Of a DNA stretch of 64,000 nucleotides, positions 99-58,421 are shown one piece after another (within the stretch, counting starts at the first letter, position 1; every line of letters begins with the position of its first letter). The notes beneath the pieces were generated by a model that saw nothing but the letters and a program-made list of their open reading frames with translations, was not told the DNA's origin and made no database searches. The stretch is taken from the NCBI GenBank assembly GCA_002189035.1, contig CM007989.1, positions 868,001-932,000 of the forward strand, read 5' to 3'. The position numbers and the translations under genes are program-made. This DNA comes from Utricularia gibba. Taxonomy: Eukaryota; Streptophyta; Magnoliopsida; Lamiales; Lentibulariaceae.

Positions 99-839
99 GT
101 GCATAAAGCTGTTGATGCTTGCAAGAATGTTCTTCGAGGTCTACACAGTAACCGAATTGCCCCTAGGGAATTGGACAGGGTGAGCTGTTCAGATTCTTTT
201 GCACCACTACCAACATAACAACTGCATGTTTCATGGATTCAACACCAAGGATAAACACATTTTAAAGCCAGATGCATATGCTCTCTTTGGCTCATATAAT
301 TACTGCTATTTGTGCGTTTGTTCCAGGCTAGGCGTACGCTCCTAATGCGACATGAGGCTGAAATCAAGTCAAACACATATTGGCTAGGCTTGATGTCTCA
401 CTTGCAGGCAGCATCCGTCCCAAAAAAGGTAGTGTCCGGTCCAGTTATAGCTAAACATGCAGCCGCCCGCATTTCATTTCCACAAATATAACATGTCCTT
501 GTACTCGCACCAGGATATTTCATGCATCAAAGATTTAACCTCTTTATACGAGGAAGCCACCATTGAAGACGTATACATTGCGTATGAGCATTTGAAGATA
601 GATGAAAATTCCTTGTTCTCCTGCATTGGAGTTGCAGGGACCCAACAGTGGATGTCAGCACAGGTGAACCCAAAATATAAGTTTTAACGTGACTGCATTA
701 TCCTTTGAGTAGTAACCCTGAAAAACGTTTTGGCATTTGTTCTGTAGCTTCTGTGATAGATGATGAAGTTGTTGACAGCCTCCAGAACACGGTTCCTTCT
801 GGTCGGGGCTCATCCACCATGACTCGGCCAACGACATGA
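99..839 (+). CDS. SPP: Stromal processing peptidase, C-terminal part (gene enters from left)
   Basis: These are the last four exons of the chloroplast stromal processing peptidase, a zinc metallopeptidase that removes transit peptides from imported preproteins in the stroma. Exons are 99-179, 327-428, 514-663 and 748-839, all with GT-AG borders. The first encodes VHKAVDACKNVLRGLHSNR, and the end reads VPSGRGSSTMTRPTT followed by a stop, the usual SPP C-terminus. The catalytic HXXEH domain lies outside the window. Oddity: exon 3 reads through CIGVAGTQ and then needs a frame change near 641-649 to give VDVSTASVIDDE and join exon 4 in phase. That is one base missing relative to the family. It is either an assembly error or a real frameshift that would alter only the last ~40 residues. 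The family call is firm. Confidence 0.88.
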
Positions 840-1435
840 ATTACATAGGTCAATACAGAGCATGCTCATTTACTTATGCATATTCTTACGGATTTTCCCT
901 GCATCAAGAAATGGTAAAGTGCCCAATGCAGCAGCATGATGAGCAGCTCCTTGGAAGGTAGATTCTATAGGTCGATGCTTCATATCAGCAGCCATTGTCT
1001 TGATGATATGAGGTTGCCTTCACTTGATTTTTTGTTCTCATTAAGGCATCGCAGTATACATTTAGTACTTCGTATACAATATGGTTTCTTGTTCATGCTG
1101 GTTACCCTTAGGAAACTTTTTAGACCTTGTAATATGAAAATCTTGCAAGTAAACTAACTGCTCCCTTGTTGATGTTTGCTTTAAAGTATTTGGTTTCCTA
1201 TTTGATGGTTAGAGCATTATCCCCTTGGATCTAGAGGTAATCGCTTGTCCTCCAGAACAACACACCGACATTTATTCTCCAAGGAGCTGTTGAATTGTTA
1301 CGTGATGATAAATTTTAACAAAAGCTGCAGCAGGACACACGGTGTGCAAAGCCAGATATTCTTCTAAGTGTTTGCGCTTGTTTGAACCATGTTTAAGTGG
1401 CAAGTGAAACTTATAGTCATCTCCTAGCTGCTGAT
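840..1435. other. SPP 3' flank, no gene seen
   Basis: This is the SPP 3' UTR and spacer up to the mannosidase relic. Small open frames here have no recognisable protein, and I see nothing else. Confidence 0.6.
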
Positions 1436-1439
1436 GTTC

Positions 1440-2060
1440 CGCGCAAGATCGTAAGTCAATGATGAAAGTTAGCAAATCCACAGGAGCAAGCTGAAGCAAC
1501 AGCGTTTTCAGGTCGATTTGCTGCCTGTCGAACCGGATTTGGAGTTGGATCCCTCTGCGTTTCATGACACCTTGTACTTCTCAACTTCAGCTCTTTCTTG
1601 GTCTGCAGATAGACTCATTTCCTTGATGCATTTTATCTGGTGAAGTGGGAGTTGCACGGGTTACATTCATTGAAATAGTCTATAAAGTAGCAGAGCATCC
1701 AAGGAAAAGTTTGTAGTGTTCCATGCTGTTGATCACCTGTCGAATTGGGAATACTTGCTTCAACTCCACGGTTGCCATGGTACACAAGCCCTTATCTTCT
1801 CCAACCTCACAGATGAGCCAAGCGCAAGAGAACACTTCTCTTACAGAGCTCCTGAGGCTGAGTTGAATACAATGAGAAAATGAAAAAACAGAAGCAATCC
1901 TTTTGACTCCCATGAAATCATCAACTTACCTGGAGAGTAATCAATGCGACGTTTTCTGGCAAGCCGTATGAAGAACCCATACCGCAAACTATTCTCAACT
2001 CCTGCTTCAAGAACCGAAGCCCTAAAGTTGTCCGTGTATCATGTCTGTGTAATCCGATGT
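1440..2060 (-). pseudogene. Alpha-mannosidase (GH38) C-terminal relic
   Basis: Read on the minus strand, three blocks match the C-terminal domain of plant class II (vacuolar/lysosomal-type) alpha-mannosidase in the right order. Block 1, about 1930-2000, ends GLPENVALITLQ and is followed by a good GTAAGT donor. Block 2, about 1725-1870, reads SVLLRLAHLCEVGEDK...MATVELKQVFP. Block 3, about 1440-1640, reads IKEMSLSADQERAEVEKYKV and later LLLQLAPVDLLTFI. An in-frame TGA interrupts block 3 after EKYKVS, and its two halves sit in different frames. The catalytic GH38 domain is absent. The original exon structure is kept, so this is decay of a genomic copy and not a retrocopy. I infer a non-functional fragment. 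Confidence 0.75.
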
Positions 2061-2117
2061 TGCTCCATCTTGCATCAGTATTGCCGCCTTTCTGTAAAAT
2101 CATAGAATAATAGAATG

Positions 2118-2287
2118 TTTAATGATTTTCGAAAATATTGACATGATTTTCTAAAAATTACTTTTATTTTTACGGAAATAATTTATTTAAATAAATTTTA
2201 TGCTACGAAAATCATTTTTAATAAATTCCATTTCCTCATGAAAACTCAATAAATTAAATCACATCATCATTTTCGAAAATCATTAAA
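2118..2287. mobile_element. MITE-like element with terminal inverted repeats
   Basis: The segment begins TTTAATGATTTTCGAAAAT (2118-2136) and ends with the exact reverse complement (2269-2287). The similarity continues inward imperfectly for about 13 more bases. The interior is AT-rich and non-coding. The size (~170 bp) and structure fit a miniature inverted-repeat transposable element. No convincing target-site duplication was found. Confidence 0.6.
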
Positions 2288-2682
2288 TATACTCTAACAA
2301 CAAGATCGTGCATCATGACTCGAGTTGCCAGGAGTATCCCGCCATCCGAGCGGTGCACATAGGCCTTGTTCTTCGACATCGACACGGATCCACAATGAAT
2401 CCAGGCCCAGATATGAAAATATCTATGCAATTGGGCTTTTATTTATGCAAATACAAGCGTTAAAGAAAAGCCTCCAAAAAACAATTGAATTAGGGATCCG
2501 TTTTTACTTTCTTATATTGAGATATTTTCTGGTTACGGTTGGCTGTCTCTCTCCTCGTTCTTCCACGCGCAAGATTTCACGGAGCTGTGGGGCCCATGTA
2601 ATGCACCGAACACGTCTCCGTTCCCTCAACAGCTCGACGCTAGATTGATCATCCGGTTCCCCTTTCGCAGCTCGCGCCACCA

Positions 2683-6503
<3,821 letters not shown>

Positions 6504-7388
6504 TCTTCATTTCTGCAAGTGTAGATATACATCAACAGAAATGAAGTGGGTAATGTCTTGTGGCGTCTGTTTTTTTTTTTTTTTTCTTCTTTTTCAAATT
6601 GCTTTGTTCATTGAACAAAGACTATCGCTATTGCTGTGTTCCCATTGGTTCTCTCTATTTCCTGGACCTGTTCCTTTGGGAGAACTGCTACTCCGACTCG
6701 GTCCCGATACGTTGGTTTCTTTATTTTATTTTAAAACTATATTATACCCTTTTAGATATTTCAGGAATTTGTTTGAGTTACTTTGGTAAAGTATTTTGAT
6801 TATTATAATTAAAACTATTTTTTTCCAAAAGTATGCATGTGTGTTTTTCAGTATACGTATGTTTGAATATGCAAACAAATTGATTTTAGATAATATTTTT
6901 CATAACTAAAACGTGGGAAATATGTACGTGGAAGAAGGAAAAACGTACGTGGCTATTGGTGTATCCAGGTTTTGAAGCGTTGAAAATCAAACGTGAATTG
7001 AGTGCAAGATGTGACTTAATGCATGAGCGGTCATCGGTCAATATTGCGTGTGTTGAATCAAACGCTCGAGTTTTGAATAATGATTTCGAAATATCAATAA
7101 ATTTCATTAAAAAAAGTCACTGTTGTACACCTATTATAATGATGATTCTTTGGATGCCTAGAAATAAAATCGGCATGATACCTGATTTGTGTTCTGAAAG
7201 AATTGGTTCTGTGGACTGGGCGTTGACTTCTCCTCGGCGGAAAGTGATCAAATTTAAAGTGCATTAACTCTAGGGTTAGGTCAGCCGTCGAGAGTCGAAT
7301 CTAATTCTCAGGCCACTCACACCGCCGCTTCACCTTCACCGCGTGTGTGTAAATATGCCCGGATTCTAAAGCTGTGAGGTTCAGAGAA
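6504..7388. other. Spacer between BON and LURP-one-related gene
   Basis: AT-rich spacer with a T14 run near 6571-6584. It contains the copine 3' end and the promoter of the next gene. No gene, repeat or RNA recognised. Confidence 0.6.
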
Positions 7389-8100
7389 ATGGAGAAAACT
7401 ACCGCTATAGTGGAAGAAACCTACGTCTACGACCGTGAAATCCTCCTCACGGTTCACAAAACCTCCGTTTTCTTCCCTGGCGACGGCTTCATCGCCTACG
7501 ATTCCGCCGGGAAAGTAGTCTTCCGTGTCGAGTCCTACACTCCTGATGGCGGCGACGCAGGCGAAATCGTACTCATGGACGGTGCCGGGAGATGCATCCT
7601 CACGGTTCATCGCAAGGTAAGGAGATCTGGAGTTCGATGTCACCGTAACCTACGCTTCCTGATTTCGAATCATGATCCAGAGACCTAGCCTGCACCACCG
7701 GTGGAATGGATTCATAGGCGAGGGTGCGGAGGGGAAGAATCCGATCTTCAGCGTGCACCGATCCTCCATAATCGGGCGGTCGACGATCACGGTGGAGGTG
7801 TACACGGATCCGAGCGAGGAGTACCAGATTGAGGGGTCATTTGCATGCCGGAAATGCTCGCTTCTTAACAGGGACAAGGAGGCGGTGGCGGAAATCCGAC
7901 GCAAAGTGGATCCGACGACGAACGTGGTCCTCGGGAAGGATGTATTCGTGTTGCTTTTACACCCTGGATTCAACGGCGCTTTCGCCATGGGTGTGATTCT
8001 GGCGCTGGATCAGATTCACGGCGCCCCCGACGAATTGGCGCCCGCGGAGGAGCTCCTCGATACGAGTACCCTTGATCACAATCACAACCGCTGCTGCTGA
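7389..8100 (+). CDS. LURP-one-related (LOR) family protein
   Basis: A tubby-fold (DUF567/LURP-one) protein. Family members are small plant proteins, and LURP1 is needed for defence against oomycetes; the biochemical role is unknown. Two exons, 7389-7616 and 7681-8100, are separated by a 64-nt GT-AG intron and give 215 aa. Family landmarks are the N-terminal YVYDREILLTVHKTS strand region, FIAYDSAGKVVFRVESY, then ILTVHRK|RPSLHHRWNGF across the splice and FVLLLHPGFNGAFAMGVILALDQI near the end. The start is the ATG that places 8 residues before YVYDRE; an upstream in-frame codon is GTG, not ATG. GC content is higher than in the flanks. The sub-type is not assigned. Confidence 0.87.
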
Positions 8101-8469
8101 TTTCTCTCTTTTCCCTATAATTAAAGAAAAGTAGTATTATACTTGAAACAAGCATAGATAGAATACTTACCATAATAATAAATTATTACTTAATTCTAGA
8201 CGCATATCATAAAAATAATAGTAGTCAATATTTTAAATAGTCAAACAAGACAAATCGTTTACATAGCCATCATTAGTTTTTCTTAAAACAAATTGATATT
8301 TTATTCATAAATAAATGTAGTTGAACGATTCGAATTTAAATTTATTATAATTAGTACGATTTTTTAAACATTGATATTGATATTAATATTAATATTTGCC
8401 TTTCCCTTTGTACAGAAAAGGAAATTCATGCAAATCTCGACCGTTACACAGTCAAGAAACAACAAGGGA
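8101..8469. other. Convergent 3' spacer
   Basis: AT-rich DNA between two convergent genes; nothing recognised. Confidence 0.6.
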
Positions 8470-9680: not shown

Positions 9681-10145
9681 GTGACAAAAGGCGTAGGCTT
9701 AGTAACTCGTGGTGGACGTTGCGGCACAACATCCAACAGTTAATGCAGCGGTCGTTTGGTATCCAAGGCCAGTCGTACTCACTGGTTGAGCTTCAATTAA
9801 TACCACATGCTTCCTCATATATAAAAGAAACATCTCAGTCAAATATTATCATAATCCGATGTGGGATAAACCAAACAGCTATCATCATGCGATGTGGGAT
9901 AAAACCATTGAACCCACTTTTACCTCCATGCTCCAAACTCTTCATTTCTTCTAGTTTTCACTGAGATACCAAAAAGAATCCCACCCATGTTTCGTAACGC
10001 ACGTATTCAAATGATAATGTTCAACAATACTGTGCTAACTTTCTAGAGTTACCAAAAGGCCCAACTCCAGTCCCATAAAGGAGATGGGCCAATTTCCCTG
10101 TAAAGGCGTACGGAACTCAGATTGGGGACATTTTGAGTGAGAGTT
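9681..10145. promoter_or_regulatory. Upstream region of SEC14-like gene
   Basis: Presumed promoter. It contains an imperfect direct repeat around the core GATGTGGGATAAA (about 9858-9870 and 9889-9901). No gene seen. Confidence 0.35.
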
Positions 10146-10801
10146 AATTGGGGAACTAGCCCTCTGCAAAAAACAAGTTTGCTGAATGATCCTATCTGTA
10201 AATTCTTGATTATTTAGCCCTACTTTTTGTAGGTATTAGCTAAATAGTCCAACTTTTAGTATAAATAAAACTATTTAATTATTGATTACAAAAAATAATA
10301 ATAGAAAATCAAATATACATTTTATATATATTTATTTATTCATTAAGTTGTATATAACTAATATATAGCTAAAAATATATATATTTAATTATATAATTTT
10401 AAAAATATAACATAATTAATTATTTAGGGAGATATTAATATATGTAATTAATTCATTATTTAAAGAAATATAAATATGTACAAATAATATAGGTGTAATT
10501 GATTAATTTTTTACATAAATATATCAATGTTATGAATATATTTGTAAATGTAGTATAATTGTAATTAATGTATTATTTAAAGAAATATATAACATATATA
10601 AATAATATAAGAGCAATTAATTTATTATTTAATAAAATATATAAACATAATGAAGATTTTATAAATAATGAACTATGCTATATAATACATAATTATATTT
10701 ACAGGTATGTATTATTAAATAATTAATTATGTTATATTTTTAAATTTATGTTTTTAACTATATATTAATTATATACAATTTAATGAATAAATAAATAAAT
10801 A

Positions 10802-10843
<42 letters not shown>

Positions 10844-11010
10844 TTGATTTTCTATTATTATTTTTCGTAATCAATAATTAATTATTTTTATTTATACTAG
10901 AAGTTGGACTATTTAACTAATAACTACAAAAAATATGACTAAATAACCAAGAATTTCTAGATAGGGTCATTCAGCAAACTTTTTTTTTGCAGAGGTCTAG
11001 TTCCCCAATT
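10146..11010. mobile_element. Long palindromic (foldback/MITE-like) element
   Basis: About 865 bp with arms of roughly 280 bp in inverted orientation. The left arm starts AATTGGGGAACTAG (10146) and the right arm ends with its reverse complement (11010). Matching continues through the CTCTGCAAAAAA, GTTTGCTGAATGA and TAGTCCAACTT blocks and deep into the AT-rich interior. The middle holds diverged tandem copies of a TTATTTAAAGAAATATA unit (about 10452-10640) and a TA-repeat run (10804-10837). There is no coding capacity. It is probably a non-autonomous transposon, class unassigned. Confidence 0.75.
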
Positions 11011-11634
11011 GACCCCGACTTTTGACACATTCATTCACTCATGTCTGCCTTCTCTCTTAACTCTGGATTTGGTCGGTTTTTCTTCTTCTCAATGTTGTTG
11101 TCTAATGCAAGTAGGCCATCTTAACAAACCTTGTTGGAATTTGGGCCTTTAGTCTTTACATTTTCTCTTTTTAGATTAACAAAATTAATCCAATTAAATA
11201 AAAAGAAAATATTTATTTTTTCTCCTTGAAAATCGTGAATACCCTTCAAATAATCTTATAAAAAGCAAATTAAATCTAAATAATATTATATCTTCATGTG
11301 TGTATATATCTTTATCTTCAAGATCATGTAATGGATGTTGGACTCAGCTATCACGTCATTAAGACTTTTTTAAAATAAATCAAATTAATGTAAAATATAT
11401 AAAAAGTAATGAGAAATTAAATTATTAAAATAACTGGGACAGGGTAGAAGGAGACGTGTCCTTTCTGTGTGTAGACGTGTCCGGAACTAAGGGCCTGCGT
11501 ATATGTAACTAATGCGGCAGTAATTTATAATATTTTATTTATAAAAATAATCGTATAAATAATTAGGTAATTTTTTTCAAAAGCCATATTTATTACCAAA
11601 AAAGAGGAAGAAATTCCGGGTACGCACCAGAATG
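11011..11634. other. Distal promoter of the carrier gene
   Basis: AT-rich DNA between the palindromic element and the TATA box; nothing else recognised. Confidence 0.5.
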
Positions 11635-11643
11635 TATAAATAA
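11635..11643 (+). promoter_or_regulatory. TATA box of carrier gene
   Basis: TATAAATAA sits 96 bp before the ATG at 11731, a normal plant spacing for a short leader. Confidence 0.5.
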
Positions 11644-11730
11644 TCCCGATTCCCGTGATTGTCGTGTGAGTCCAAGTTTGATTTTTTTCCCCCCTCTGTG
11701 TTTTATGTGATTTTGTTTCATGATCGCTTG

Positions 11731-13769
11731 ATGTCTACTGGAGTCGAGGCGCGTGGGAATTTCTCGGCGCCGGCGGCCGTGGCAAGGGCAGCGGAGGGGG
11801 ATGTGCAGGCTGCGGGGCCCACCGGGGGTTATGCTCCGGCGAAGAAAGCGGGGGTGCCGTATCGCTGGAACACGTCCTCTGCGCCTTGCGAGAGACGAAG
11901 GAGGTTAGGGAAACGAGGATTCGGGGTTTATTCAGTTTTTTCGATTCCAACAACGGGGGGTATTTAGATTCAGTTCAGATCGAGGAGGGGCTTTCGGCGA
12001 TGGAGATTCCGGCGGATTATAAGTTTGCGAAGGAGTTGTTGAGAGTGTGCGATGCGAATCGAGATGGGAAGGTTGATTATCAGGAGTTTAGGAAGTACAT
12101 GGATGATAAGGAGCTTGAACTGTATAGAATTTTTCAGGCTATTGATGTGGAGCACAATGGGTGCATTTTGCCTGAAGAGTTGATGGCTGCGCTTGTCAAA
12201 GCTGGTATTGTTCTTTATTTATGGATTTAATGCCCTGTTCCTTTATTGGATTCAATGGTATCAGCAATTTGGCGATCATAATAGCTCTGAGGATTTTAAG
12301 TGGAGGACTTTGATGTTTATTTGTGCTTGTTTTTAACTGCAAGAGATAAATATGCTTTCTTTATCTTATAAGTCATGCAGTTCACTTCTCCAGGGATTGA
12401 AATTGATGATACGGAGCTCGCCAGCTTTGTTGAGTATGTTGATAAGGACAAGAACGGGATCATTACTTTCGAGGACTGGAGAGATTTTCTACTGTTCTAT
12501 CCACACGAGGTCACAATAGAAAACATATATCGATATTGGGAGAGGGTGTATCTTGTAGATATTGGTGAGCAGGCCGTCATTCCTGATGGTGTCAGCAAGC
12601 ATGTTCATGCATCAAGATATCTAATTGCAGGTGGAGTTGCCGGAGCTGCATCTCGTACTGCTACTGCACCCCTTGATCGTTTGAAGGTGATCTTACAAGT
12701 TCAGACCTCTCGAGCTCACATTGGTGGAGCAGTAAAACGCATTTGGATGGAAGGTGGTGCTTTAGGTTTCTTTAGAGGTAATGGGATAAATGTGCTCAAG
12801 GTTGCACCTGAAAGTGCCATTAAGTTTTATACATATGAAAAGTTGAAAGGTATCATCGGAGATGATAAAGGAGACATTGGAACATCAGGGAGACTTGTGG
12901 CAGGTGGACTTGCCGGAGCAGTTGCACAGGCTTCCATTTATCCTATGGATCTTGTGAAAACGCGGTTGCAAACATTTGGGTGTGAACAAGGGAATGTTCC
13001 TCCAAGTATTTTTAAATTGTCCAAAGACATAATGCTTCAGGAGGGGCCTCGGGCCTTTTACCGAGGGCTAGTGCCCTCACTTCTAGGCATTATACCATAT
13101 GCAGGGATCGACTTAGCTGCATATGAGACATTGAAGGATATGACGAAGAAGTACCTTATTCATGATGGTGGTATGATTCTCGACAATTGCATATACAGTT
13201 GTCAATGAATTTTGGAACATGCTATATGTGATGTGTATACGTTATGCAGAACCTGGCCCTCTTGTGCAACTGAGCTGTGGTACAGTCTCTGGAGCCCTCG
13301 GAGCAACATGTGTTTACCCTCTTCAGTTGGTTAGAACAAGGTAACTAATTCCTGGTCTTTGAGAAAAGGAATGCTGCTCACAGGATTTGTGCATGATATT
13401 TCTCTCTTGTCTGATGTTATTATTGGAAATCAAGTCATCGCCTCTGCGATACCCTGATGTCTCTACTAGTTTTTTTTTTTTTTTAAGTAACCTAAGTGTT
13501 CTGGACTTTATTTCTAACTTTCAAAAAGAAAAATAAGCTACTAGAAGCCCGGAATACCTACTAATGGAACAACGTTTTTCAGAATGCAAGCTGAGAGTGG
13601 TGCTGCATCTTACAGTAGCATGTCTGATGTATTTCTGAGAACTTACAAAGTTGAAGGCCTACGTGGATTCTACAAGGGACTCTTCCCAAATCTTCTTAAA
13701 GTAGTCCCGGCCGCGAGTATCACATATCTAGTTTATGAGACGATGAAAAAGAGTCTGGATCTCAGTTAG
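11731..13769 (+). CDS. APC: Ca2+-regulated mitochondrial ATP-Mg/Pi carrier (SCaMC/APC type)
   Basis: An inner mitochondrial membrane carrier that exchanges ATP-Mg/ADP for phosphate under calcium control. Exons are 11731-12204, 12394-13167, 13250-13340 and 13583-13769 (~508 aa). The N-terminal half has EF-hand loops: [14 protein letters not shown] (canonical), [14 protein letters not shown] and [14 protein letters not shown], plus a degenerate first hand at [11 protein letters not shown]. The C-terminal half has three mitochondrial-carrier repeats with signatures [18 protein letters not shown] and YPLQLVRTR. Oddity: reading from the only sensible ATG, the frame must change near 11857-11860 to enter [15 protein letters not shown]. 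The family has CCG GTA where this sequence has CCGTA, so one base is missing. Without it the ATG frame terminates early. Confidence 0.93.
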
Positions 13770-23083: not shown

Positions 23084-26082
<2,999 letters not shown>

Positions 26083-27781: not shown

Positions 27782-30700
27782 CTAAACCGTGTAGTTTTGC
27801 TGAATCGTGTCGATGTCCAGCCCCTTGAGCTTCACCACAGACTCCACATGCCCTTTCAGAGTATGAAGCTCTCTCAACCTGGGATAAAGAGAAGAAGTGC
27901 ATAAGCTTTTTGTTGAAAATGACTTTTGGCACAAGGGGAGTCTCAGTTGAAATTAAACCTTGCAACTTCGGCACGCTTCATTGCTTGTTCCGCGATCACA
28001 GATAATTCCCTGTAGTTGTTCTTGTCATTCATGAGTTGGGAGGCATCTGGTGTTTGAAGCCCGTGTAGGGTTCGTTGAGCCATGGCCCATTGCGCCTCCC
28101 TTTCGCCTCGACCGTAGTCCTTCTTTGAAGTGAAAGCAGTCTAGCAACACAGAGCGATGGTGGAGTTACGAACTGGATGCTGCCAATGAAATAACAGGGA
28201 AATTCTTACCTTGTTTTCAATCATGTGTTTCCAAGCCCTGCCACTTAGTGCATATCTGATGATGAACTTGAAAATGTCCAAAGGAATGTAGAATATGATA
28301 TTGTAGAGCCATATCACCCCGCACCAGCCCCAACCTATTGCCTGGATTCGTGCAAATCCCCAGTTCGCATAGGCAGCTATAATAGTTGCAATCTGCGTAT
28401 GAGAGAAAATGTAGCATTATACCTACGATCAGAGATTGAAAATCTCTGTTCTTGTAGGTAGGTATCCCTTACCAGTTGTGCTACCAAAAAGGCGGCTATG
28501 AGCAGAAGACCGGGCCTTTCCACGTAAGACCAGCTCCTAGATCGAGTCACAAAGATGAGAGCCTGGCTTATGATGCTAACTTGTAGATACACAGCTGAGT
28601 TGAGCTCTTTAGGGTGGTCGTTGATGGGTCTTACCCCAAAATGTTTCTGAATGTAAGAAGTAGCTTCTGTCATATTGATTCCTCGAAGAAGTTGAAAAAG
28701 AAGAGTCTTTTGGTCTGTACTTACAGTGAAGAAGTTGGATTCCTGAGCTGCCCAAAAGAAAACCACGGTCATCACAGCAAGGTAAGCCCCCAGAACGATC
28801 CCCGTGGCGAAGATCTCCTTGAGCTTCCATGAATCGGGCATCGGGGACGGCTTTACCTTGTCTTTGGAGATCGTCATGATGGTTCCATCGTTGAGGATGG
28901 CGATGATCAGCACCATGAAAGGCGAGAAGTCGAACTTCCAAATGAGGGCAAGAAGCATGAAGCCCAGCACGATACGAATGGTGATGGAAACCGCATAGAT
29001 TGTGTAGTTCTTCATCCTTTGGAAGATGGCTCTGCTGGTCAGCACAGCACTGATTATGACACTCAGACCAGGCTCAGTTAGTACTATGTCCGAGGCACCT
29101 CGTGCCGCATCAGTTGCATCCGCTACTGCAATCCCAATGTCTGCTTTCTTGAGAGCTGGTGCATCGTTCACTCCATCTCCAGTCATTCCGCAAATATGCT
29201 TCATTTCTTGAAGCTTCTTGACAATCTCATACTTGTGTTCTGTGATACGAGGATTCTTGTAAGTTATGGCGGGCGGGAAGAAGATGAAAAGGAGTAGGGT
29301 GATTGTCTACCAGGGAAGACGCCAGCAAAACCATCTGCCTTTTCAATCAACTCTTCAATAGGGATATGGGCAATGCTTTCATCCTTGTGTTGTCCAAGGA
29401 GTGAAGAAGAGGGGTACATGTTCGTCCCATGCCGAGCCGACGAGCTGTTTCCTTTCCAATTGCGAGTTGATCTCCTGTGATCATCTTCACATTGACACCA
29501 AGGTTGAGAGCACGTTTGATCGTCTCCCCGCTATCATGCCTTGGAGGATCAAACAGCGGCAATAACCCAACGAAACTCCATGGACCTCCGGCACTCTCCT
29601 TCGTCTTCTCAGGTACAACCTTTCACATGACAGCAACATGGAACTTAAAGCTTGATTAGTTCATGAAATTTGAAGTCCACACTGGAAACTTTTTTACCTG
29701 CTGAGCAACAGCAAGGGACCGGAGGCCTCGATCGGCAAACTTGTCGATGATCGCATGAACTCTCCTCTTGACGTCCTCCTTTAGTTCGCAGAGTTCAATG
29801 ATCTGGAAGAATAAACAAAAAGATTAGCAACCGAAAGTTAAGGATTTTGAGTTAAAAAGAGACCTGAATACCCCACCTGTTCTGGTGCACCTTTACTGAT
29901 TCTATGCCAGTCCCCATTGTTGTCGATATAAGTAATAGCTGTTCGCTTTCCAACCGGGTTGAAAGGAAGGAAATGAACCTCTGTGATTCCTGCTCTGGCC
30001 TCCTTTGGATCAGCCAACATCCCAACAATGCAAGCATCAATGGCATCCTGATTTTCGACTCTCGAAGCTCGAGCCCCAAGAAGTATCAGTAGTTCCTTGT
30101 CTATATCCTTTGCAAAAACCTGAAAAACAGCTTTTTGATCATATCAGAAAATTCATTGTTGTAATAAATCTCATTCGAATAAGCACCACATTTGTTTACC
30201 TCAATCAAATTTTTATCCACTGTGAGCTTATTGAGAGTAAGTGTGCCAGTTTTGTCACTGCACAGCACATCCATTCCAGCCATTTCTTCAATGGCTGTCA
30301 TTCTTTTCGTGATGGCACCCTGTTGAGATAAACGGTGCGAGCCGATCGCCATGGTCACCGATAAAACGGTAGGCATAGCAATAGGAATCCCTCCAATAAG
30401 CAAAACCAGGAGATTATCAATTCCATCTCTGTAGCTTCTATGTTGAATCGGGTACATGACTATCAACTCAATGACAATCCCAATAGCAATGGAGCATATG
30501 CAGAAGTTACCAATAGCAGTGAGCACCTAAAGTCCATTCTCATGTTAAAATGATTATACAGAACATCAAGATGGCCACCAAGAGATAAGTCTACCTGTTG
30601 GAAATGACCAACATTCTGAGTACTGTCGACAAGATGAGCTGCTTTGCCAAAGAAAGTGTTGATACCAGTGGCTATGACAACCGCCTCGATTTCTCCTTGT

Positions 30701-32523: not shown

Positions 32524-34815
32524 ATGACCATCGCCGACGATTGGGTGGCGGCCGCCATGGGCGACGATACGCTCGTGGTTGAGCTACTCGTGCGGCTCCA
32601 AGGCGCTACTCTTCCGGCGCCGAGGAAGGGCACAGCGGCGCTGCCTTTGCCGCTGGAGTGGAGCGTACGTCAGCGGCGATCCAGGTCTTTGAAGAAGGCG
32701 CAGAGGGCTAGCCCTTCCACGCCGTTGACGTGGAGCGGCGCGACGTCGTTTAGCGGATCTGGCGGTGGCGGTTATGACGAAGAGTCCTGCGATGTGCCAC
32801 CGGAAAAACTCCTCTCCGCCGCGAGATCTAAGGTTTGTGAAACACGAAAATATATTTCTCTGATTTTCATTTATCGGTCGCCGCCGCTAGATCGGAGACG
32901 GAACGTATTTTCGTCGATTTCACGGCGGTGTGCGTCCCTATGAACTGTTCGCATTCAGAGGCGCTCGTGTCAGCTGTTAACTTTGGGGTCACCTAACGTG
33001 TCAATGACTCTTGTACCCCCAGGAAATGTGGATATTTACTTCCGCGCGCGTGTGTTGGAAGCCAGATTCCAGCCATTCACATAACTCCTTGTGTTGCGTT
33101 GTGTCCCCCCCTCCTCCTCCACCGGCTGCCGGTGTGTCTGTCAACGAATGACACTTTTAGCCCTACACGCGAAACCCGTGGCTCGTCCTTTGGTGAAATT
33201 ACACCATTACCCTGGTCCTCTGACAGGTAGTCTGGTGATTAATGGCCTTTGGGGATCATAATCCGCACCAGAAGGGGTGTCGTGGTTTATGGTGAAAAGG
33301 GTGATTACCAGGGAAAATCGACTCAATTGTTGGCGTGTCCTTAGTGGCAATTAGGTCTGCTGTTTACGTTTGGGGGGTTATCTGGTACGGTGTGGATCAC
33401 CATTATTAACGTATGACGTCGTGTATCCGTTTTGGACTGGATGGGCATATTTGACCCATGTCCCTGAAACGCGACGTCGTTTGGAGTCTGATGCGCCGCA
33501 AGGCTCTCTCCCACGTCGTTCTCCTCTGCGATGGCCCCTTTCCTGGGTGATCACGAAGGTGAAGTGTGTGTGATCCGTGAAGCTTCTGGGTTTTGCTGAC
33601 AAAACTCCAAAAGCTTCCGTTTGACACCAAAACAGGTCATGTTTGGTAGAGCTTTTAGAGATGTGTACGAGGGAGCGTCGGTTACGTTGCCATGTATAAG
33701 GTTCTTCCTGATAAGCGGGGCAGTTCAATGCAGTCCTACCTCCAACTAGTTGGTTATTTGGTTTGCTTCTGAATTCCATTTTTTATTACTTGAAGACGGC
33801 TGCATTTAATGGCTCATAAATGAAGGGCAGATGATTTGGGTGCCCCCCCCCCCCCCCAAAAAAACCCTTCCTTTGGATTGTTCTCTGTGTTTTTGTTTGA
33901 GTGGTCAAGCCTGTGTGCGTGACTTTTATTTATGAGACCAAACTTATCTTGGTGTGGTATTTATGACTACATTCAAGTATTGATTGTGTGCATGTATCAA
34001 GGGTTCTTGCACTGTAGTGGCTGGTCTCTGTTGTGCATTTATTCGTATGATTCCGCTGCGATTATCCATGCTTATGAGTGGTTTATGTGATAGATCAATG
34101 GGGAGTGTGAAAAAAGGAGCTCTAAGAGGCTAAAAAGGAAGAAGGTAAATGAATACCTCTCATATTTTGCTCTTGCTCTGTGTTCTAATTGGTGAAAACT
34201 GTTGGCTAACTTGTCTTTGTGTTTCTTTTCTAATGATTCGTAGACATTATCAGAACTAAGGGTAGAAGAGAGCTCACTGCTCAAGGAAAGAATAGAGCTG
34301 AAAAAGGTAACCCACTTGTTTTCCTTCTCCCACTCGTGATGCAAAATTCAGACACTATATAATCTGTTTGTTAATTTAGGAAATAACCAAGTTGCGGTTG
34401 CATCTGGAAGAACAAACAGCAAAGAATGACAAGTTCAAGAGGATGAAGGTAAATGCCACAACTTTCTTCACTTATGCAGTTCCTTCCTTTTTTGCAGACA
34501 AACACACGACTCACTCACAAGTAGAATTGGAATACTATCTGCATACACAAACCTCGGCTACTTACTCTTGCTTTGTGAATGTTGCCTTGCTGTGTGCTCA
34601 TGTTCCTTGCCTTTGAACAGACAGAGTTGCAGCCTGTCATGGCTCAAGAATCTTCATCAACAGCATTACCATGCGCCAACTCCAACAAGCTACAACAAAA
34701 GATACCCTCCGCACCTGATGAACCGTCACCACTTTCAAAATTCATGCTTCCAGATCTAAACATCCCATTTGAAGAAGAATCACATTGCCCCGAACTCGTT
34801 CCTGCAATCAGCTGA
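32524..34815 (+). CDS. Uncharacterised plant protein with basic/coiled-coil segment and DLNIP motif
   Basis: I do not recognise a named family. Five exons (32524-32832, 34094-34144, 34244-34306, 34380-34448 and 34621-34815) are all in phase and give 228 aa. Residues 1-103 are GC-rich and contain LPLEWSVRQRRSRSLKK and TPLTWSGATSFSGSGGGG. Exons 2-4 encode a basic stretch (KRSSKRLKRKK) followed by a leucine-spaced helix (LSELRVEESSLLKERIELKKEITKLRLHLEEQ), resembling a short bZIP-like region. The C-terminus carries LPDLNIPFEEE, a DLNxP motif like EAR-type repression motifs. Nuclear localisation and a transcriptional role are inference only. Intron 1 is long (1.26 kb) and holds a C15/A7 homopolymer run. 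Confidence 0.65.
33844..33865. repeat. Poly-C/poly-A homopolymer run in intron
   Basis: About 15 C followed by about 7 A inside intron 1. Length accuracy here is doubtful in any sequencing technology. Confidence 0.8.
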
Positions 34816-35797: not shown

Positions 35798-36438
35798 TCA
35801 GGTAGGCTTCAAGTCCTGAAACAGAGAGTCCCACTTGACCTGTTCAAAGCCACCACTCCAGCGCTCCCTTTCTGGGGACTGAACCAACTTGCTGCTTGAG
35901 ATGCTGCTATCTGGATGGCTGGTTGGCGCTTCTCCTGCCTCGATCACCTCCGATTCCGGTAACGTCGACCCGTGACTCGAACCCGAACCCGAATCACCAT
36001 CCTTGTGCGCTGGTTTCGCCATGATGAGCATTCTTGGAGCAGAGCAAACCATAGCGCTCTCGTTTCTGCACCAGCTCCTCTGTTTCCTCTGCATCATCGT
36101 CAGCCTCCATCTCAAGCTGTGGTTCCTCATTGGCACCGCCACCGGCAACGCCGAGCCGCCGCGCCGCCCGAGAATCCCCGAACTCGACTCATCAGGAAGC
36201 TCTTGGTTCGCGCCGCCGCAGTGAGCATCCACAGGAAGCTCTTGCTCCTCTGCCTTCTCGCCAATTTGAGGATCTCCAGCCGGTGCTTGGCCTTCGTAAT
36301 CCCCATGCTCTGGAGGAAATCGTGGCTGAAGTAGGCGATATCCTCCTGGTCCAGCTCGTTGTCCACGAAGACGTAGGCGTATTCCGGGACGAGGGAAGGA
36401 TCAAGATCGGTTTTTGAGAGCCAGGACAGCCAGTCCAT
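35798..36438 (-). CDS. SAM-domain protein, copy 1 (frameshifted)
   Basis: A small protein with an N-terminal sterile-alpha-motif domain, a protein/RNA interaction fold. The start at 36438 gives MDWLSWLSKTDLDPSLVPEY...FLQSMGITKAKHRLEILKLARR. The C-terminus (KWDSLFQDLKPT) matches that of copy 2 (RWDSMFQNLKPT), but it lies in another frame. The frames overlap between about 36127 and 36232, and the shift corresponds to one missing base in a GC-rich stretch there. As written, the first frame ends at 36127. The gene is single-exon in this view; I cannot rule out a small intron in place of the frameshift. Copy 2 lies 1.5 kb downstream on the same strand, so this is a tandem duplicate pair. Confidence 0.7.
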
Positions 36439-42730: not shown

Positions 42731-43078
42731 CTAGGCGGACACGTCCGACGCCAGCCTCGCGGCGATCGCTGAGTGATTCCACCTGTCGTGAAAATTCGAG
42801 GTCTCAATCGTCTTCTTACGCAGCGCCTTGGCCTTCTCCTGCGTGAAGCATCCCATGAATAATTTCTTCTCTGGCCGGACGACGTTTGAAGCCGGATCCG
42901 ATTCCTCAACCGCCGAATCGTGCTTAGATCCTCCGCCGATTAGGTAATCCGGCTTCGAGCCCCATCCGACGATCGGAGTCCACCAATTGCTGTTTCTAAG
43001 GCCGGATTCCGAAGATGCGGTGGAGGAAGCAACTGGGACCCGAGATGCGGAGAAGAAGAGAGTTGCCGATGACACCAT
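42731..43078 (-). CDS. Small plant-specific protein, function unknown
   Basis: Single exon, 115 aa from MVSSATLFFSA; the frame is open further upstream to 43261, but that part looks like leader. The conserved-looking C-terminal half reads FMGCFTQEKAKALRKKTIETSNFHDRWNHSAIAARLAS. The central part has SGLRNSNWWTPIVGWGSKPDYL. I recall similar uncharacterised proteins in other angiosperms but no function. The N-terminus is Ser/Ala-rich and may be an organelle-targeting sequence (inference). Confidence 0.6.
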   Translation of the reverse strand: MVSSATLFFSASRVPVASSTASSESGLRNSNWWTPIVGWGSKPDYLIGGGSKHDSAVEESDPASNVVRPEKKLFMGCFTQEKAKALRKKTIETSNFHDRWNHSAIAARLASDVSA

Positions 43079-49935: not shown

Positions 49936-50440
49936 GAAGATCTCCCCATTAGCCGTGAAAGTCATAAAGGCAACCGGCGTGGTGAGTTTTTACAACCGGA
50001 AATAATGGATTTTGAATAGATGAGACCGTGTGTGTTGTTTTGTGGCAGAATGTGGTCTTGGGAGGATTCGACACGACATCGGTGTTCATCGTGTGGATGC
50101 TGACTCTTCCGGCGAGAAACAGACAGGTTCTACGGAAGGCACGAGAAGAGATCGACGGGGCGATCGGGAATCAGACGGTCAACGACGGGAAGTTGCCGTA
50201 TCTTCAGGCCATCCTTAAAGAAGTCCGTCGCTATCCGCCGCTGCCGTTGGAGTGGCGGGAATCACCATGCCCAGGGCGAATCCTTGGGGATGGAGCTCCC
50301 GAACTGTACGCCTAGCTTGGGACCAGATGCGTCGGAACTTTCGATGTTGGCAATCGCCTTCAAGTACCATACCATACTTACTTTGACTGTGCCCATCAAT
50401 AAATGCATAGCCAAGTTGCTGCAGATTTGATAGAAGCATT
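49936..50440 (+). pseudogene. Truncated CYP82-like P450 copy
   Basis: A tandem partial copy of the P450 at 51549-53285. It begins in the exon before the second intron (ISPLAVKVIKATGV|GTGAGT at ~49981) and resumes at 50049 with NVVLGGFDTTSVFIVWML, continuing to GKLPYLQAILKEV and RYPPLPL. It then jumps to ITMPRANPL near the C-terminus. Roughly 330 nt, including the heme-binding loop, are missing. The 3' UTR (to ~50440) is still alignable with that of the full copy. It lacks the first ~300 codons and the heme cysteine, so it cannot be an active enzyme. Confidence 0.85.
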
Positions 50441-51548
50441 AACTGTGGTAGATGATATCGATATCTTATATATGCATGAGTTAATGGCCACACTCAAGTA
50501 AGGGTGTAAGTCAAATACCATATACATTATGGATGAAACATAGAAATAAATTATATAAACAGATTCTATGTAATCTTACATGAGTTTTTTTTTTAAAACA
50601 AAAAAAATTTAAAATTATAAGAATTGAATATTCGAAGAAAACAATATTATGTAAGAATTATATATGTGTGTATGTAAAATGATGATATTGCTATTGAACC
50701 AAATATATGATAAATGTTCTACCACGCGTCAGGGGAACCACCATCCCCTTGACTATGCTGCCAATGAATGGAATCTGAATAATCCTATGTGTTTTTTCAA
50801 CGATTTGGAGTTTAGGGTCTAGGGATGTGATATGGTTGATAATGAGAGCAAGATATTGAAAGATGATCAGCAATTCCTTTTCATTAGGTGGTAACGTGGT
50901 CTCTACTGCCATCAAATATGATCAGAAATTAATTATTTTTTGTCAACTGATTTATGTAAGCATTAGAAATTAATGATTAGAATTTCAATTTTTGAAATAA
51001 TAATGATTTTTCTGATTTTTAAATAATAATATTTTAGAAAAACAGATATGTACTTTAGATAAACATGGGTATTTACGTCATTTGAATAGTGTAATAAATA
51101 TATGTAAATAATCGATTCTTGGATCGGTGATTTTGGGTGCGAATGTAGGAGGTGGTCTCCTTTTTTAAAAATTTTAATATTTTTATTTATTAATTTAAAT
51201 AATAAATATTTATTAATTAAAAATTAATTAATCAAAATTCTAATTCTTCCTTTTAATTTTTCTATATTTTCGTCTATTTCCATCATCTACCCATGTTGTC
51301 ACATTTCATCATTCATCAATTAAAATTTTAATTTTCATGAATATTTTACTTTGTATTAAAAATTATTTTATTTTAGTATTTTAATTACCACAAATACCAA
51401 TTATTTTTTCCCGACATGGGAATTGCAGGTGGGCTGGGCTAGCTGACTGTTAGTTGTATTGGAGGTAGTTGTGAAGCGACCTCCTGGACGAGGGAGTGTA
51501 TTTAGTAGACCTCTTTCCAACGGATGGGAGCATTGAATTTTTGATGAT
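50441..51548. other. Spacer before CYP82-like gene
   Basis: AT-rich DNA. It includes 50757-50930, related to 47380-47535. No gene seen. Confidence 0.5.
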
Positions 51549-53285
51549 ATGACGGTGTCGGAATACCTTGGGCTCTTTGGCTGCTTAGTCTTCCTGTTTC
51601 TTTTCCGGAGGCTGTCCAGTAAAAGGGGAGGCGAGTTGCCGCCGGAGCCGCCGGGGCGTGGCCGATAGTCGGCCATCTTCCCCTGATTGGCAACAAGAAA
51701 CACATTGCTCATTCGATGACGGAACTCGCCGCGAAATACGGCGACCTTTTCGGCCTGCGGATGGGGATGATGCGCGTGGTGGTGGTGGGCAGCCGTGAGA
51801 TTGCGGAGGAGTTTTACACCGCCGTGGATAAGGTGCTTGTGGACCGGCCGCAGACGAGCAGCGGGAAACACCTCGCTTACGACTTCGCGGCCTTCGGGTT
51901 CGCAAACGGGCCGTACTGGAGAGAGATGAGGAAAATCGTCACTGTGGAGGTCCTCTCCTCCCGCTCCTTGGACTCCATGCGGAACCTCCGGGTCTCCGAG
52001 ATAACGCAGAGCATCCACGAACTGTACCGGGAAGCAACCAAGCGCCTAGAAGCTACAAAGATAGCCATCAGCTCCTGGGTGGAACAAGTCACCCTCAACA
52101 TAATCGTCAGAACGCTAGCCGGAAAACGCTATGCCCAAGGCTCGCCTCCCTCCCTCGGATCTCAATTTTCCGATCACTCGTATTGTAAAACGAACCAGGA
52201 ATGAGTTGCCTCTTTCTTTTTCTTTTCTTGTTGCGGGGAACAGGTAGTGATGAAGTGAAGACTTTCAGAAAGCAGATGAGTGAGTTCACGTTGCTGGCCG
52301 GCGAGTTCGTGCTGTATGATGTGATCCCACTTCCGCTATTGCGATGGATTGATCCTCAGAAGCATCTCAAGAGGATGAAGACCGTCTCGAAGGAGCTGGA
52401 CGCCATCGTGGAGACGTGGATACAGGAACACATTCTTGCGAAAGCCAGGAAGGAAGAAGGCGGAGGTGATCACGACTTCATAGATGCGATGCTCTCCGTC
52501 ATGGAACGCAACGGTAAATTAAACCTCACCGGAGCAGGGATCTCCCCATCGGCGATGAAAGTCATCAAGGCGACAGTCGTGGTGAGTTTTCGGACGACCG
52601 AAAATAACGGGTGTTGAATGGGATAAGATTGTGGAGACTGTGTGTACGTGCTTTTGTTGCAGAACGTGATCTTGGGAGGATTCGACACCACATCGCTGTT
52701 CATCGTGTGGACGCTCTCTCTCCTGGCGAAAAACAGACACGTGCTAAAGAAGGCACAAGAGGAGATCGACGGCGAGATCGGGAAGGAAGCATGGGTGCAG
52801 GAATCAGACATCTCAGAGGGGAAATTGCCGTACCTTCAGGCCATCCTTAAAGAAGTCCTCCGCCTCTATCCCCGCTGCCGTTATCACTCCCCCGGGTGGC
52901 GACGGAGGACTGCCGTCTCGCAGGATACCGGATTCTGAAGGGGACACAACTGTTCGTGAATTTGAGGAAGATCCAGCGAGACCCGGAGCTCTGGGAAGAC
53001 CCGCACCGGTTCATGCCGGAGAGGTTTCTGGGAAAGAAGGCACATGTTGAGTTCATGAGTAGGGATTTCGAGTACGCCCCCTTCGGAGCGGGGAGGCGAT
53101 CGTGCCCTGGAACCTCCTTCGCTATGCACGTAACCGGCTTGTTGATCGGACGGCTGGTGCAGGGGTTCGATTTCGACGGCGGAGACGGCGTGGACATGGA
53201 AGAAGGGCTGGGGATCACCATGCCCAGGGCGAATCCTTTGGAGATGTTTCTCACTCCCCGTCTAGCTCCACAACTATACGCCTAG
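51549..53285 (+). CDS. Cytochrome P450, CYP82-like (two apparent frameshifts)
   Basis: An ER-anchored heme mono-oxygenase; substrate unknown (CYP82 enzymes act on terpenoids, flavonoids and alkaloids). Start 51549: a membrane anchor (EYLGLFGCLVFLFLFRRL), the Pro-rich hinge LPPEPPG, then AKYGDLFGLRMG, GPYWREMRKI, GGFDTT (I-helix), KEVLRLYP (ExxR), PHRFMPERF and FGAGRRSCPG with the heme Cys, ending LAPQLYA (stop 53283). Exons are ~51549-52138, ~52244-52563 region to GTGAGT, and 52663-53285. Two one-base deletions break the frame: in G-run 51653-51656 and in C-run 52870-52873. The truncated sister copy keeps the longer form at the second site. The first intron has no clean GT donor at the expected place. 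It may be functional if these are sequence errors. Confidence 0.82.
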
Positions 53286-53412
53286 CCGGGGACCATAGAA
53301 CTGTTGTTGGAGTGGTCCTTTTTCTTTTTGCTGTGGCCATGAATAAATGCATAACCAAGTTGGTTGCAGATCTGATAGATAGAAGCAAAGTATTGTCGTT
53401 GACAGCAACATC

Positions 53413-56400
53413 TCATAGTTGTTTAGCTTTCGCCGCTTTCGCCGCTTTCTCCTGCTTCAACCTTTTCCATTCTTTGAGAGCAGCTAGAAGGACGTGCAGC
53501 GAAACCGGCAGGAAGAAGGGCTGCGCAAACAGGATGGGAGGAACCCAAGTTCAAAAGCATGCATCTTTCTTGGAATGTAAGTTCATGTGCAGGAAGAAGG
53601 GCACCCACCGAGTAGACAGCGAAGCAGTGTTCGAATGAGAAGTAGCTCACAGACATCATGGAGGGATGGTAGAAAGCATCCTCCGCGAAGGATCTTGCAT
53701 ATCTCGAGGACACTGGGATGAGGGGCAGGGAATCGAAATGAACATACATTTTACTGAGGTGAAGAGAGGATTGAATCACGAAAGCATACCCGCAGCAGAA
53801 TCATGAACTCCTGCGGATGCGTTGCTCAGGGCCATTCTAGCGGCTTCAAGGAATACTTCACCTGTGTGTCAGTGTACTGCATGTTAGGACGTCTTCATAG
53901 CGACAACCATGACTACCCTACCTGTCTCAGTATTGACAACTAGATTGTCAGCAAAGAGACACAGGCATCAATAAATATGGGCCCATTTGACAAAGAATAT
54001 AGAAATGGGGATTACCTGTTTACCTATTTCATCCTTGATGATCATCCTTGGGAGGGATTGAACCTGCTTGAAACGTCTTCATTAAAGAGTTGAAAATCGA
54101 CTTGCAGGATTAATATCATTAGCTGGGAAACCTCAACTAGCATCCTTTGATTTGATTTAAGATGCAGGGAACTAATATTGAATTTTTTAGCCAAAGGAAA
54201 ACATTTCAACCATGTTGAGGTAAAAAATAACTTGAAACTGATAATGTACCAGACGAGAAATAAATCCACATTGGATTTTTTTAGCTAAAGGAAAACATTG
54301 CAACGTTTGGACTAAAAAAGAACTTGAAACTGATAACGTACCAGACGAGAAATAGATCCGAGCGTTGTCATGCACTGATGAATGTTGAAATACGTATGCT
54401 GCCGTGACAAGACATCGAGTTCCCTTTCACAAACATAACCACATAAGGCTTGAAGTACTAATAAGTGCTGTTCAGAAAGACTATAAACGCATTATGTCAG
54501 CGCTAAAGCGAAGAAAGATGCATCGCATCCATCAATCATTTATCCAAAAAAATGTTTTCTGATTTGTCAGAATTCTGACAGATCCTAAGCCCTTGTTCAC
54601 AAACCATTCAACCTATAATCTTACCATTGTGCAAACCCTCTTTCAACTGCCAGTATCTGTAACGAGTCTGATGGATTACCAAAATGAAGAGGAGAGTTCA
54701 GCCCAAAGAGCTTCCGAATCTGAGCAAGGAAAACTTCAAAAATTTTCCTTGTGGCCTGTTCAGAATTTGGAAGTTAAGAAAAGCTGGCAGTTGTACACAA
54801 AAGATAAGTCTTGACCCATAAAACAAGACATTCTGGAATAGCTTCACCATGTAAAATTTTGTTACCAAACCAAGAACACTCTCCGTGCATGTGTATCAAT
54901 TTTATTTGCCAATATTCACACATTTAGTCAGTTTGTTCTAGTTGCAGCTTACGTCAGGAGAAATCTTCTGCCTGGAACGAGACCTTGGTTGCAGGCAATC
55001 TGGAGGGTTCCAGACAACTACCCCTCCCCACATCTGAAAGTTTGTGGACAAAGATGCATTAGATTTGACAAAAAACTCAAAGTGTACGGTATGGGAAAAT
55101 AAAACTCACTGGTGAAATGAACCCATTTGCAGAAGAAATTTCTCCATTTGGGAGCTGAAACTGGAGTGGACACTCCATGGCTGATGGCACATATCTATAC
55201 ACGAGGAGGAAATGCAAGGTCAAAGGAAAAAAATCTGCTCAAGTGTAAGACACGGAGCAACAAGAATGTGATTGGCTAGACATTTTAAGTAGTAATGTAA
55301 TAGCCAGATAAAGATTATACACCACAAAATGTAGGATCTTTGATTGTCCTCCAGCGTCAACTGATGTATCCAAATGCCACTCATTGGAGTTCACCTATAA
55401 GACTTCAGCAGATGAGAAATTTCAGGGGAAAAGGCCAGATATGACAGGTAATCATTAGTTAACCCTTCCACGGTTAAAACTCAGAATATGAAGGGAAAAA
55501 AATCATTAATTTACTTGGAAAAAGGAATGTTGATAAAAGTTAGCACGTGAAACAAAGAACGGACATAATCTTACAAAGAAAGGAAGATCTTCCTTAGTGT
55601 ATATGTAGCTGCCGAGCTTGTCATCCCAACGCGGAAATGAAGACCTTGGAGTATGATATAGCACCTGTGCACACCAGGAAACATCCCATGTGAATTCTAA
55701 AAAAACAGAACCTCAACACCTGGTCAGTTGGATGCAGAAACAGACTGTTGGTAAGAAAATTGACCAAATGAAAAACAAGAGGCGCAACCTGGCTCTCAAT
55801 TTTAATATCTGCCACAGGCTGCAAACCCTTGGTTACTGGCATCAAGATATTCTCATCGATATCTTGGAAATCCCTGCAGGTAGTGAATAAATTCAAAGAC
55901 ACAAAACATTTACTACAAAATAGGTGCTAGATATTACCAAAAAAAAAGACTTTTTTTCAGCCCTGCTGATTTCAGTCACTAGGATCCAAAGATTATAAAA
56001 AGGAAAAATCAAAAGATGTGGGAGAGCATTCAATCACTAAAAATAATACTTATAAGGAAACGCATACCAGCCGTATGTCCAATCACTCGGATTTGCATTC
56101 AGCAAACTGAAGGAAAATACAGTCCTTCCGTCCGCCCCTACAGGCATGAACTCTCCACTGATTGATGATTCTTCCCTCCAACCATTCACAAACACCTTCA
56201 CGAAAGTGTCAGCCACCTTCTTCACCGCTCCATTCACTGAAAAATTACCCACTGTCCATGCATGCCTATACTTGCCAATCACTGTCTTGATCTTCACTAA
56301 GTTCTCCCTCCGAGCAACAATCACAGTATAGACATTTTCCAAAGTTCCCTGACTGTTAACACTATCGAATAAAACATGTAACTTCTCATCAAAAGTGTCA

Positions 56401-57016
56401 ACATCGAGTTTTCCCAACTCTTTAAGCCTAATCAGCTCAATCAACGATTCGCACTCCCATTCCGGACGATGGCCACTATGAGAGCAATCAGAACCAGAAT
56501 ACAGGGTAACATATACCGCAGAGTCATAGCTACAAGAGCCGCCGGGAAGTGCACCGTTCCCCGCTAGGCTCCGCATTTGAGACCGAGTCAAAACCGACAA
56601 CTCCTCGGGTGTTGAATTCAACCCCTCGAAGCCAACAAAAACTGCTCGGAACTTGCAAGGGAAATGCAACGGAGAAGAAAAGAATGTGGCCGACAATTCC
56701 TCGATTTCTCTGAAGGGCAGCGGTGATCTGTAAATCTCCACAGATTTAAACAGAAATGGAAGACCTGGGTAACGATATACACCATCAACAAGGGCAATAA
56801 AGTTCGATTTAAGGATTTTCAGAAGTTGAAATAGTGAGAACAGTGACCTAAGAGAAAAGACAGAAGAACAGAGAAGGTGAGAGTGAAGCGCTTGAGTCCT
56901 GGTTTCTTTTTACGTATAGTTTCCTTGTCGAGTTCCGGCTCTGCATCTCGTCCCTCGGAAGATGAAGGCGGCGCTGAATCATCGATTTCCGTCATCGCTG
57001 AATCGTCGATTGCCAT
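53413..57016 (-). CDS. PIGS: GPI transamidase subunit PIG-S
   Basis: An ER membrane subunit of the complex that attaches GPI anchors to proteins. About 13 exons, including 56848-57016, 56068-56764, 55789-55873, 55575-55664, 55321-55394, 55110-55194, 54953-55033 and 54625-54755, then four short ones and a last exon ending at 53413. Landmarks are the N-terminal TM segment (FTLTFSVLLSFLL), VEIYRSPLPFREIEEL, FPCKFRAVFVGF, VGKYRHAWTVG, GEFMPVGADGRTVFSFSLLNA, MWGGVVVWNPP, ELDVLSRQHTYFNIH, SVSYFSFEHCFAVYS and the C-terminal TM FFLPVSLHVLLAALKEWKR. One base is missing near 53848-53852 (family VKxSLEAARMAL). An intron carries a tandem duplication reaching into exon 9. Confidence 0.92.
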
Positions 57017-57159
57017 CTACAGTCCGCCGGTTCACTTGTATTTATACCGGAGTTGGAGCAATTAGGTGGCATTAGCTACTTAAAAAAAAGAGCTTTTAAT
57101 ATTCCTTCTGGGGTTTTCGTTTCCCCCAAATTGGAAGATCGAAGCCCTAATTCGCAACA
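57017..57159. promoter_or_regulatory. Compact bidirectional promoter PIG-S / FHA2
   Basis: Only 143 bp separate the two divergent start codons. TATTTATA at 57039-57046 reads as TATAAATA toward PIG-S but is only ~23 bp from its first ATG. The real PIG-S start could therefore be the second Met (MTEIDDS). Confidence 0.5.
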
Positions 57160-58421
57160 ATGGGGAGCGATGTGGAAGCAGGCTTCGCCAAGCTACAAGG
57201 TGAAGACTTCGAATACTACATGCAGACATACTCCATCGTGCTCGGCCGCAACTCTAAGAAGTCCTCCGTAGACGTGGATCTCTCCTCCCTCGGCGGGGGA
57301 TGAACATCAGCCGCCATCACGCCCGCATTTTCTACGATTTTCAGCGTCGTCGTTTTGCCCTGGAGGTTCTGGGGAAGAATGGCTGTCTCGTTGAGGGTGT
57401 TCTTCATCTCCCTGGCAATCCTCCGGTGAAGCTCGATTCGCAGGACCTATTGCAAATTGGGGACAAGGAATTTTACTTTTTGTTGCCCGTGAGGAGTATT
57501 CTCGGCGGCCCTGTCGGGTCCAGGCACCAGCCAAGCAATTACGCCATGGGGTCTACGCCGCATCACTATCATTCTCCTGCTCAGGGTCTAATGAATCACA
57601 TGGTGCTGCCTCCTGGTTCTGGAGGCGGAGTTTCTGGCTATGGGAAAAAGGGAAGAGGGAGGGGAGAGTACTATGAGGATGAGCGTAATGAGGCGGATGG
57701 TCTAGCTGGTGGGGATGATGGGTCTTCTGGAAGCAAGAGAATCAGGCGGGGCGATATAGTTGATGGTTCTGGTAATTCCGGCTATGGTTTTGGTTCCGGT
57801 GGTAAATCTGGGAGTTCTGGGCAGTTGGGTAAGTTCCAAAATCTTCATTTTTTTGGGAAATTTAAGCTTAAAATTTCAATTTTTTCTCGATCTTAATCCA
57901 TTTTGTTGATACCTGATATGTGAAGACTTCCCCCATCTGGCGCTCTGAAACGTGAGTTCTTCTGCAGATAAAAAGGTGGATGGACGGTCTCATGTCATTA
58001 GGGAAGCCGACGAGGAGCAACTCCTTCAATTAGAAGAGAAAGATGTTGTGTCATCGGTGGCAACAGTGCTTTCTGATTTATGTGGCCCTGGAGAATGGAT
58101 GCCCATGGAGAAACTCCACTTTGAGGTACTCTTTTCATGCTTCAAGTGAAATGGACATCTTACAACAAGCAGCAACATGTTCATTGAGACTGAGGTGAAT
58201 GAATGAATCATGTTGTGCAGTTGGTGGAGAAATTCAGCCATGTGTGGCACCATGCTCGTGTGCGGAGATACTTGAGATGGGATGATGACTCGAGCCCAGA
58301 AGCAAAGGGAAAGCCCTGGTATGGTCTGCTCAAGTTACTGAGAAAGTATCCGGAGCATTTTGTCATAAACACCAGATCAACTGGTTCACAGTTCGTCTCC
58401 CTCGTCTCACTATTGTCATGA
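57160..58421 (+). CDS. FHA2: Forkhead-associated domain protein FHA2
   Basis: A nuclear phosphothreonine-binding FHA protein; the Arabidopsis FHA2 group acts in transcription and stamen development. Exons are 57160-57828, 57968-58125 and 58221-58421. The FHA domain occupies about residues 10-110 (DFEYYMQTYSIVLGRNSKK, MNISRHHARIFYDF, LEVLGKNGCLVEG, LLQIGDKEFYFLLPVRSILGG). A Gly/acidic linker follows, then a conserved C-terminal region (VATVLSDLCGPGEWMPMEKL, AKGKPWYGLLKLLRKYPEHFVINTRS) ending FVSLVSLLS. Oddity: the SLGGG-MNISR junction lacks one G in the run 57295-57299. As written a TGA follows immediately and the protein would stop at residue ~47. This fits a homopolymer error. Confidence 0.93.

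Follow-up and report, generated by a model that had tools for sequence, protein, structure and literature searches.

Frame breaks within otherwise conserved genes resemble several described systems. Homopolymer indel errors in long-read assemblies take the form of one-base deletions that break otherwise intact genes, and such deletions are commonest at runs of four to five bases (PMC12007338, PMC8812927); a nanopore example has more errors in A/T runs (PMC12007338). Pseudogenes and fractionation after whole-genome duplication likewise leave frame-breaking indels in duplicated plant genes, and programmed frameshifting or transcriptional slippage likewise shifts the frame within a homopolymer while the protein stays conserved on either side. 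The published assembly of Utricularia gibba was built with HGAP at 88-fold coverage and comprises 581 contigs with an N50 of 3.4 Mb (PMC5793159).

The window, a stretch of 64,000 nucleotides (C1:868001-932000 of the 100.09-Mb plant genome, in 516 contigs), contains nine flagged sites in eight genes. Like the long-read errors, they are one-base deletions in otherwise intact genes but, unlike the nanopore example, all mapped breaks fit G/C runs. Real decay leaves insertions as well as deletions, of many sizes; the flagged genes carry nothing but one-base deletions and, unlike pseudogenes, show purifying selection wherever a comparable homoeolog exists. In contrast to programmed frameshifting, the sites share no common slippery signal, they lie in unrelated housekeeping genes, and paralogs that lack the run keep their frame. 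Judged from sequence comparison, the nine breaks are very probably consensus errors, in which G/C runs were counted one base short at many places.

Methods

At each of the nine flagged sites, the reading frames of both strands were inspected for a conserved-family protein that resumes in a different frame too closely for an intron to intervene. In the genome-wide scan, adjacent GRAS and EXO70 matches in differing frames were sought and their breakpoints were then read. KCS and HSP70 genes formed a replicate set, for which one-base deletions in G/C runs were predicted, the prediction being recorded alongside the searches. The seeming breaks at L069, L073, L076 and L107 were introns or divergent stretches and were not counted, and the apparent breaks at L079, L082 and L083 were left out of the count. 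The identity of a missing base was deduced where a wobble position was hit, and placement in runs of two to three bases is a matter of interpretation.

Results

Nine frame breaks in the window

The nine sites are collected in Table 1. The earlier note had described them as lacking exactly one base each, with no insertions; this holds by homology at eight of the nine, where chance is excluded and no intron could be accommodated, and the net change is -1 at all nine. Its estimate that at least four lie in C or G runs proved conservative, as six of the nine fall in G/C runs of three to five bases and the APC and SPP sites can be placed likewise. The positions it gave needed small corrections; that of the APC carrier (11857-11860) was a few bases off and now lies within 11845-11854. 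In the flagged genes examined, the flanking coding sequence is otherwise intact, as had been noted: the remainder of the P450 gene is whole, with its FGAGRRSCPG heme motif and a normal stop, and the first exon of FHA2 has the one-base break only.

Table 1. Sites of the nine frame breaks, with the evidence at each (positions are those of the window).
Gene and site	Position	Strand	Evidence
SPP-like (stromal processing peptidase-like), last-but-one exon	637..643	+	Splice phase to last exon needs one more base near GGG/CCC
BONZAI/copine gene (BON), CCCC, frame change	5351..5354	+	BONZAI 1 structure match and Pfam Copine
Mitochondrial carrier with EF hands (APC-type), one base short within AAAGCGGGGG	11845..11854	+	Paralogs in frame
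Plasma-membrane H+-ATPase, CCC, frame change	29426..29428	-	Homoeolog has CCCC; third-position bias on either side
SAM-domain protein copy 1, CCCC, frame change after SRVRG	36176..36179	-	Comparison with the C317 homoeolog
Cytochrome P450 site 1, GGGG, ELPPEPPG to AWPIVGHLP	51653..51656	+	p450 profile downstream of break
Cytochrome P450 site 2, CCCC, LKEVLRLYP to PLPLSLPRVATEDC	52870..52873	+	PF00067, 149 bits, read across
PIG-S (GPI transamidase subunit), VKYSL to EAARMALSNASAG	53844..53853	-	PF10510, 77.6 bits, across break
FHA2-type FHA-domain gene, GGGGG, LSSLGGG to MNISRHHARIF	57295..57299	+	FHA domain, 9.6e-12, across break

Pfam profiles bridge the breaks of FHA2 (FHA), BON (Copine) and PIG-S (PF10510) and that at the second P450 site. 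When BON is read through its break, the product aligns without gaps to BONZAI 1 (PDB 6kxk) over 83 of 83 residues (E = 4e-47). In SAM copy 1, a SAM_2 match (4e-10) lies upstream of the break. For the APC carrier, neither L040 nor the C317 homoeolog, both of them paralogs, changes frame across the interval, and the gap could sit either in AAA at 11845-11847 or in GGGGG at 11850-11854. PIG-S gives a weak match to human PIG-S (7wld); the short run there has only one or two bases, and the exact missing base is ambiguous. The SPP site, with GGG at 637-639 and CCC at 641-643, is the weakest of the nine: a profile search returned only a weak DUF1263 match, and the splice phase, which alone argues for a missing base, is consistent with a one-base deletion.

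Just upstream of the P450 gene (51.5-53.3 kb), related P450 fragments occur at 49939-50434, apparently as a relic of tandem duplication.

Comparison with a homoeologous block

The region C317:488-548 kb (C317:488001-548000, L034-L039), read in reverse, is the whole-genome-duplication copy of the window from 11.8 to 58.4 kb. The exon of the H+-ATPase differs from its homoeolog mainly at third codon positions (30 of 34 differences), on both flanks of the break. A single frame runs intact through the SAM homoeolog, and its comparison with copy 1 places the break in the window at the CCCC run. Nothing in the C317 block matches the SPP, BON, P450 or PIG-S sites, and those copies appear to have been lost.

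The FHA2 homoeolog (L005) is 81% identical overall and has an identical five-G run with an identical break. Upstream of the break, 13 of 46 codons differ between the pair, all at third positions (dN = 0, dS = 0.59), and downstream the differences at the three codon positions number 2, 1 and 21 (dN = 0.015, dS = 0.49). Since the differences on both flanks are almost solely at third positions (34 of 37), both copies have been selected in the very frame that is interrupted in the assembly. A third paralog (L006), which has mixed glycine codons without the run, is in frame.

The C317 copy of the carrier (L038) and, in its 3' part, that of FHA2 give a contrasting picture, with a mixture of insertions and deletions of several sizes. 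This suggests real decay of both, although the first exon of FHA2 is under purifying selection.

Within the same block, a small conserved gene at 42827 of the window has a C317 copy (L049, near C317:495.4-495.9 kb) with one base fewer (GG to G), an error of the same kind.

Breaks across the genome

Reading of GRAS, EXO70, KCS and HSP70 genes across the genome gave 24 further breaks; each is the loss of a single base that can be placed in a G/C run, and no insertion occurs among them. Fifteen interpretable breaks come from the GRAS and EXO70 scan (L064, two in L065, L066, L067, L068, L070, L071, L072, L074, L075, L077, L078, L080 and L081). In the KCS and HSP70 replicate set, nine of nine readable breaks are as predicted (L104, L105, L106, L108, L110, L111, L112, L113 and L114). 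The breaks are spread over many contigs, and the four families have unrelated functions.

Sixteen of the 24 breaks fall in observed G/C runs of at least four bases and none in A/T runs of at least four, and the two classes of run cover similar shares of coding bases (2.95% and 3.15%, respectively; P ~1e-5 for G/C versus A/T). On these sequences the error affects G/C runs specifically and does not extend to homopolymers generally, which refines the earlier reading. Five GRAS genes (L065, L066, L067, L068 and L070) are broken in a common motif stretch, where the G/C run has four to six bases; in 20 intact GRAS genes, the G/C run at that motif never exceeds four. Observed runs of just two to three G/C bases also break, again with the sign -1, in HSP70 and KCS genes (L106, L111 and L112).

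The fault is partial, as some G/C runs of six are correct (near 11955 in the APC gene and in the GRAS gene L087). Wholesale truncation of G/C runs was considered and rejected, the run-length distribution falling smoothly.

The assembly holds redundant contigs, small ones that duplicate stretches of large ones, and two such pairs were compared. C376:19501-24000 and C413:5403357-5407856 are identical over 4.5 kb and so exposed no random errors, and C241:17721-17860 agrees with C304:2236201-2236340 at 139 of 140 bases, with an HSP70 break common to both. This identity fits a reproducible error, and it fits shared reads or true sequence as well.

Non-coding sequence of the window holds, at about 33832-33846, some 14 consecutive C followed by seven A, a stretch absent from the homoeolog; its presence indicates that long C runs can survive in the assembly.

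Discussion

Source of the missing bases

The earlier note had taken systematic indel errors of an under-polished long-read assembly as the simplest reading of the breaks, and this reading is backed by the 24 of 24 breaks elsewhere in the genome and by selection on FHA2 in the conserved frame. We infer the technology to be PacBio continuous long reads, probably assembled with HGAP without effective short-read polishing. Under such a scheme, longer runs, of five to seven real bases, would fail most often, and the fault would follow local sequence, so that paralogs with a common run, such as those of FHA2, can share the error. We further infer that reads at these sites carry the extra base. In the plant itself, these genes are most probably whole. 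Against assembly error it can be said that PIG-S and SPP do not lie in a long run, that some G/C runs of six are correct and that the distribution of run lengths is not truncated.

Real decay would mean that a one-base deletion had made a pseudogene of each of the eight genes in this lineage, perhaps following whole-genome duplication. Genuine cases do lie nearby, in two C317 copies (that of the carrier, and that of FHA2 in its 3' part), but their varied indels look different from the uniform one-base deletions of the flagged genes. The window genes otherwise retain their frames and motifs, such as the heme motif of P450; FHA2 and the H+-ATPase show strong purifying selection on both flanks of the break, where the third-position bias has not been lost; and the same pattern recurs genome-wide in conserved GRAS genes, including DELLA-like ones, and in HSP70 genes. 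Independent decay of eight genes, which had already been called unlikely, is thus contradicted by the single sign of the indels, by purifying selection and by recurrence across the genome, and we regard it as highly improbable. A mixture, in which most of the nine are assembly errors and one or two (for instance APC, SAM copy 1, PIG-S or SPP) are real deletions or altered splice sites, is unlikely, yet it deserves more weight: PIG-S has no run of at least three bases at its break, where an alternative splice donor could provide a bypass, the SPP case depends on splice phase and the missing APC base is not exactly placeable. However, the short G/C runs that break with the same sign in HSP70 and KCS genes argue against the need for such exceptions.

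It is also conceivable that the shortened G/C runs are real and that the frame is restored by ribosomal frameshifting or transcriptional slippage at them. The FHA2 homoeologs, which share a break under purifying selection, behave as a conserved recoding site would, but the third paralog needs no shift, so that only two of the three copies have the break. The H+-ATPase and SAM homoeologs carry in-frame sequence, in contrast to what a conserved site would show, and dozens of unrelated genes, with differing contexts and runs down to two to three bases, would need the same device. We know of no frameshifting or slippage mechanism of this kind in plant nuclear genes, and recoding can hardly be credited as an explanation.

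Assembly error is therefore preferred to these readings. The nine breaks are almost certainly an assembly artefact, of practical and not biological interest. Among the breaks that were read, about 13 interrupt GRAS genes that are otherwise conserved, several of these breaks falling at a single motif, and genes for heat-shock proteins and wax synthesis are likewise interrupted. Claims of gene loss, pseudogenes or gene counts made from this assembly for a plant with a small genome need to be checked against reads first.

Other observations

Between the BON and APC sites, an element at 10136-11020 has 185-base inverted arms that are 90% complementary, and many copies of it occur in the genome at 70-93% identity. 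It is probably a MITE-like or foldback transposon.
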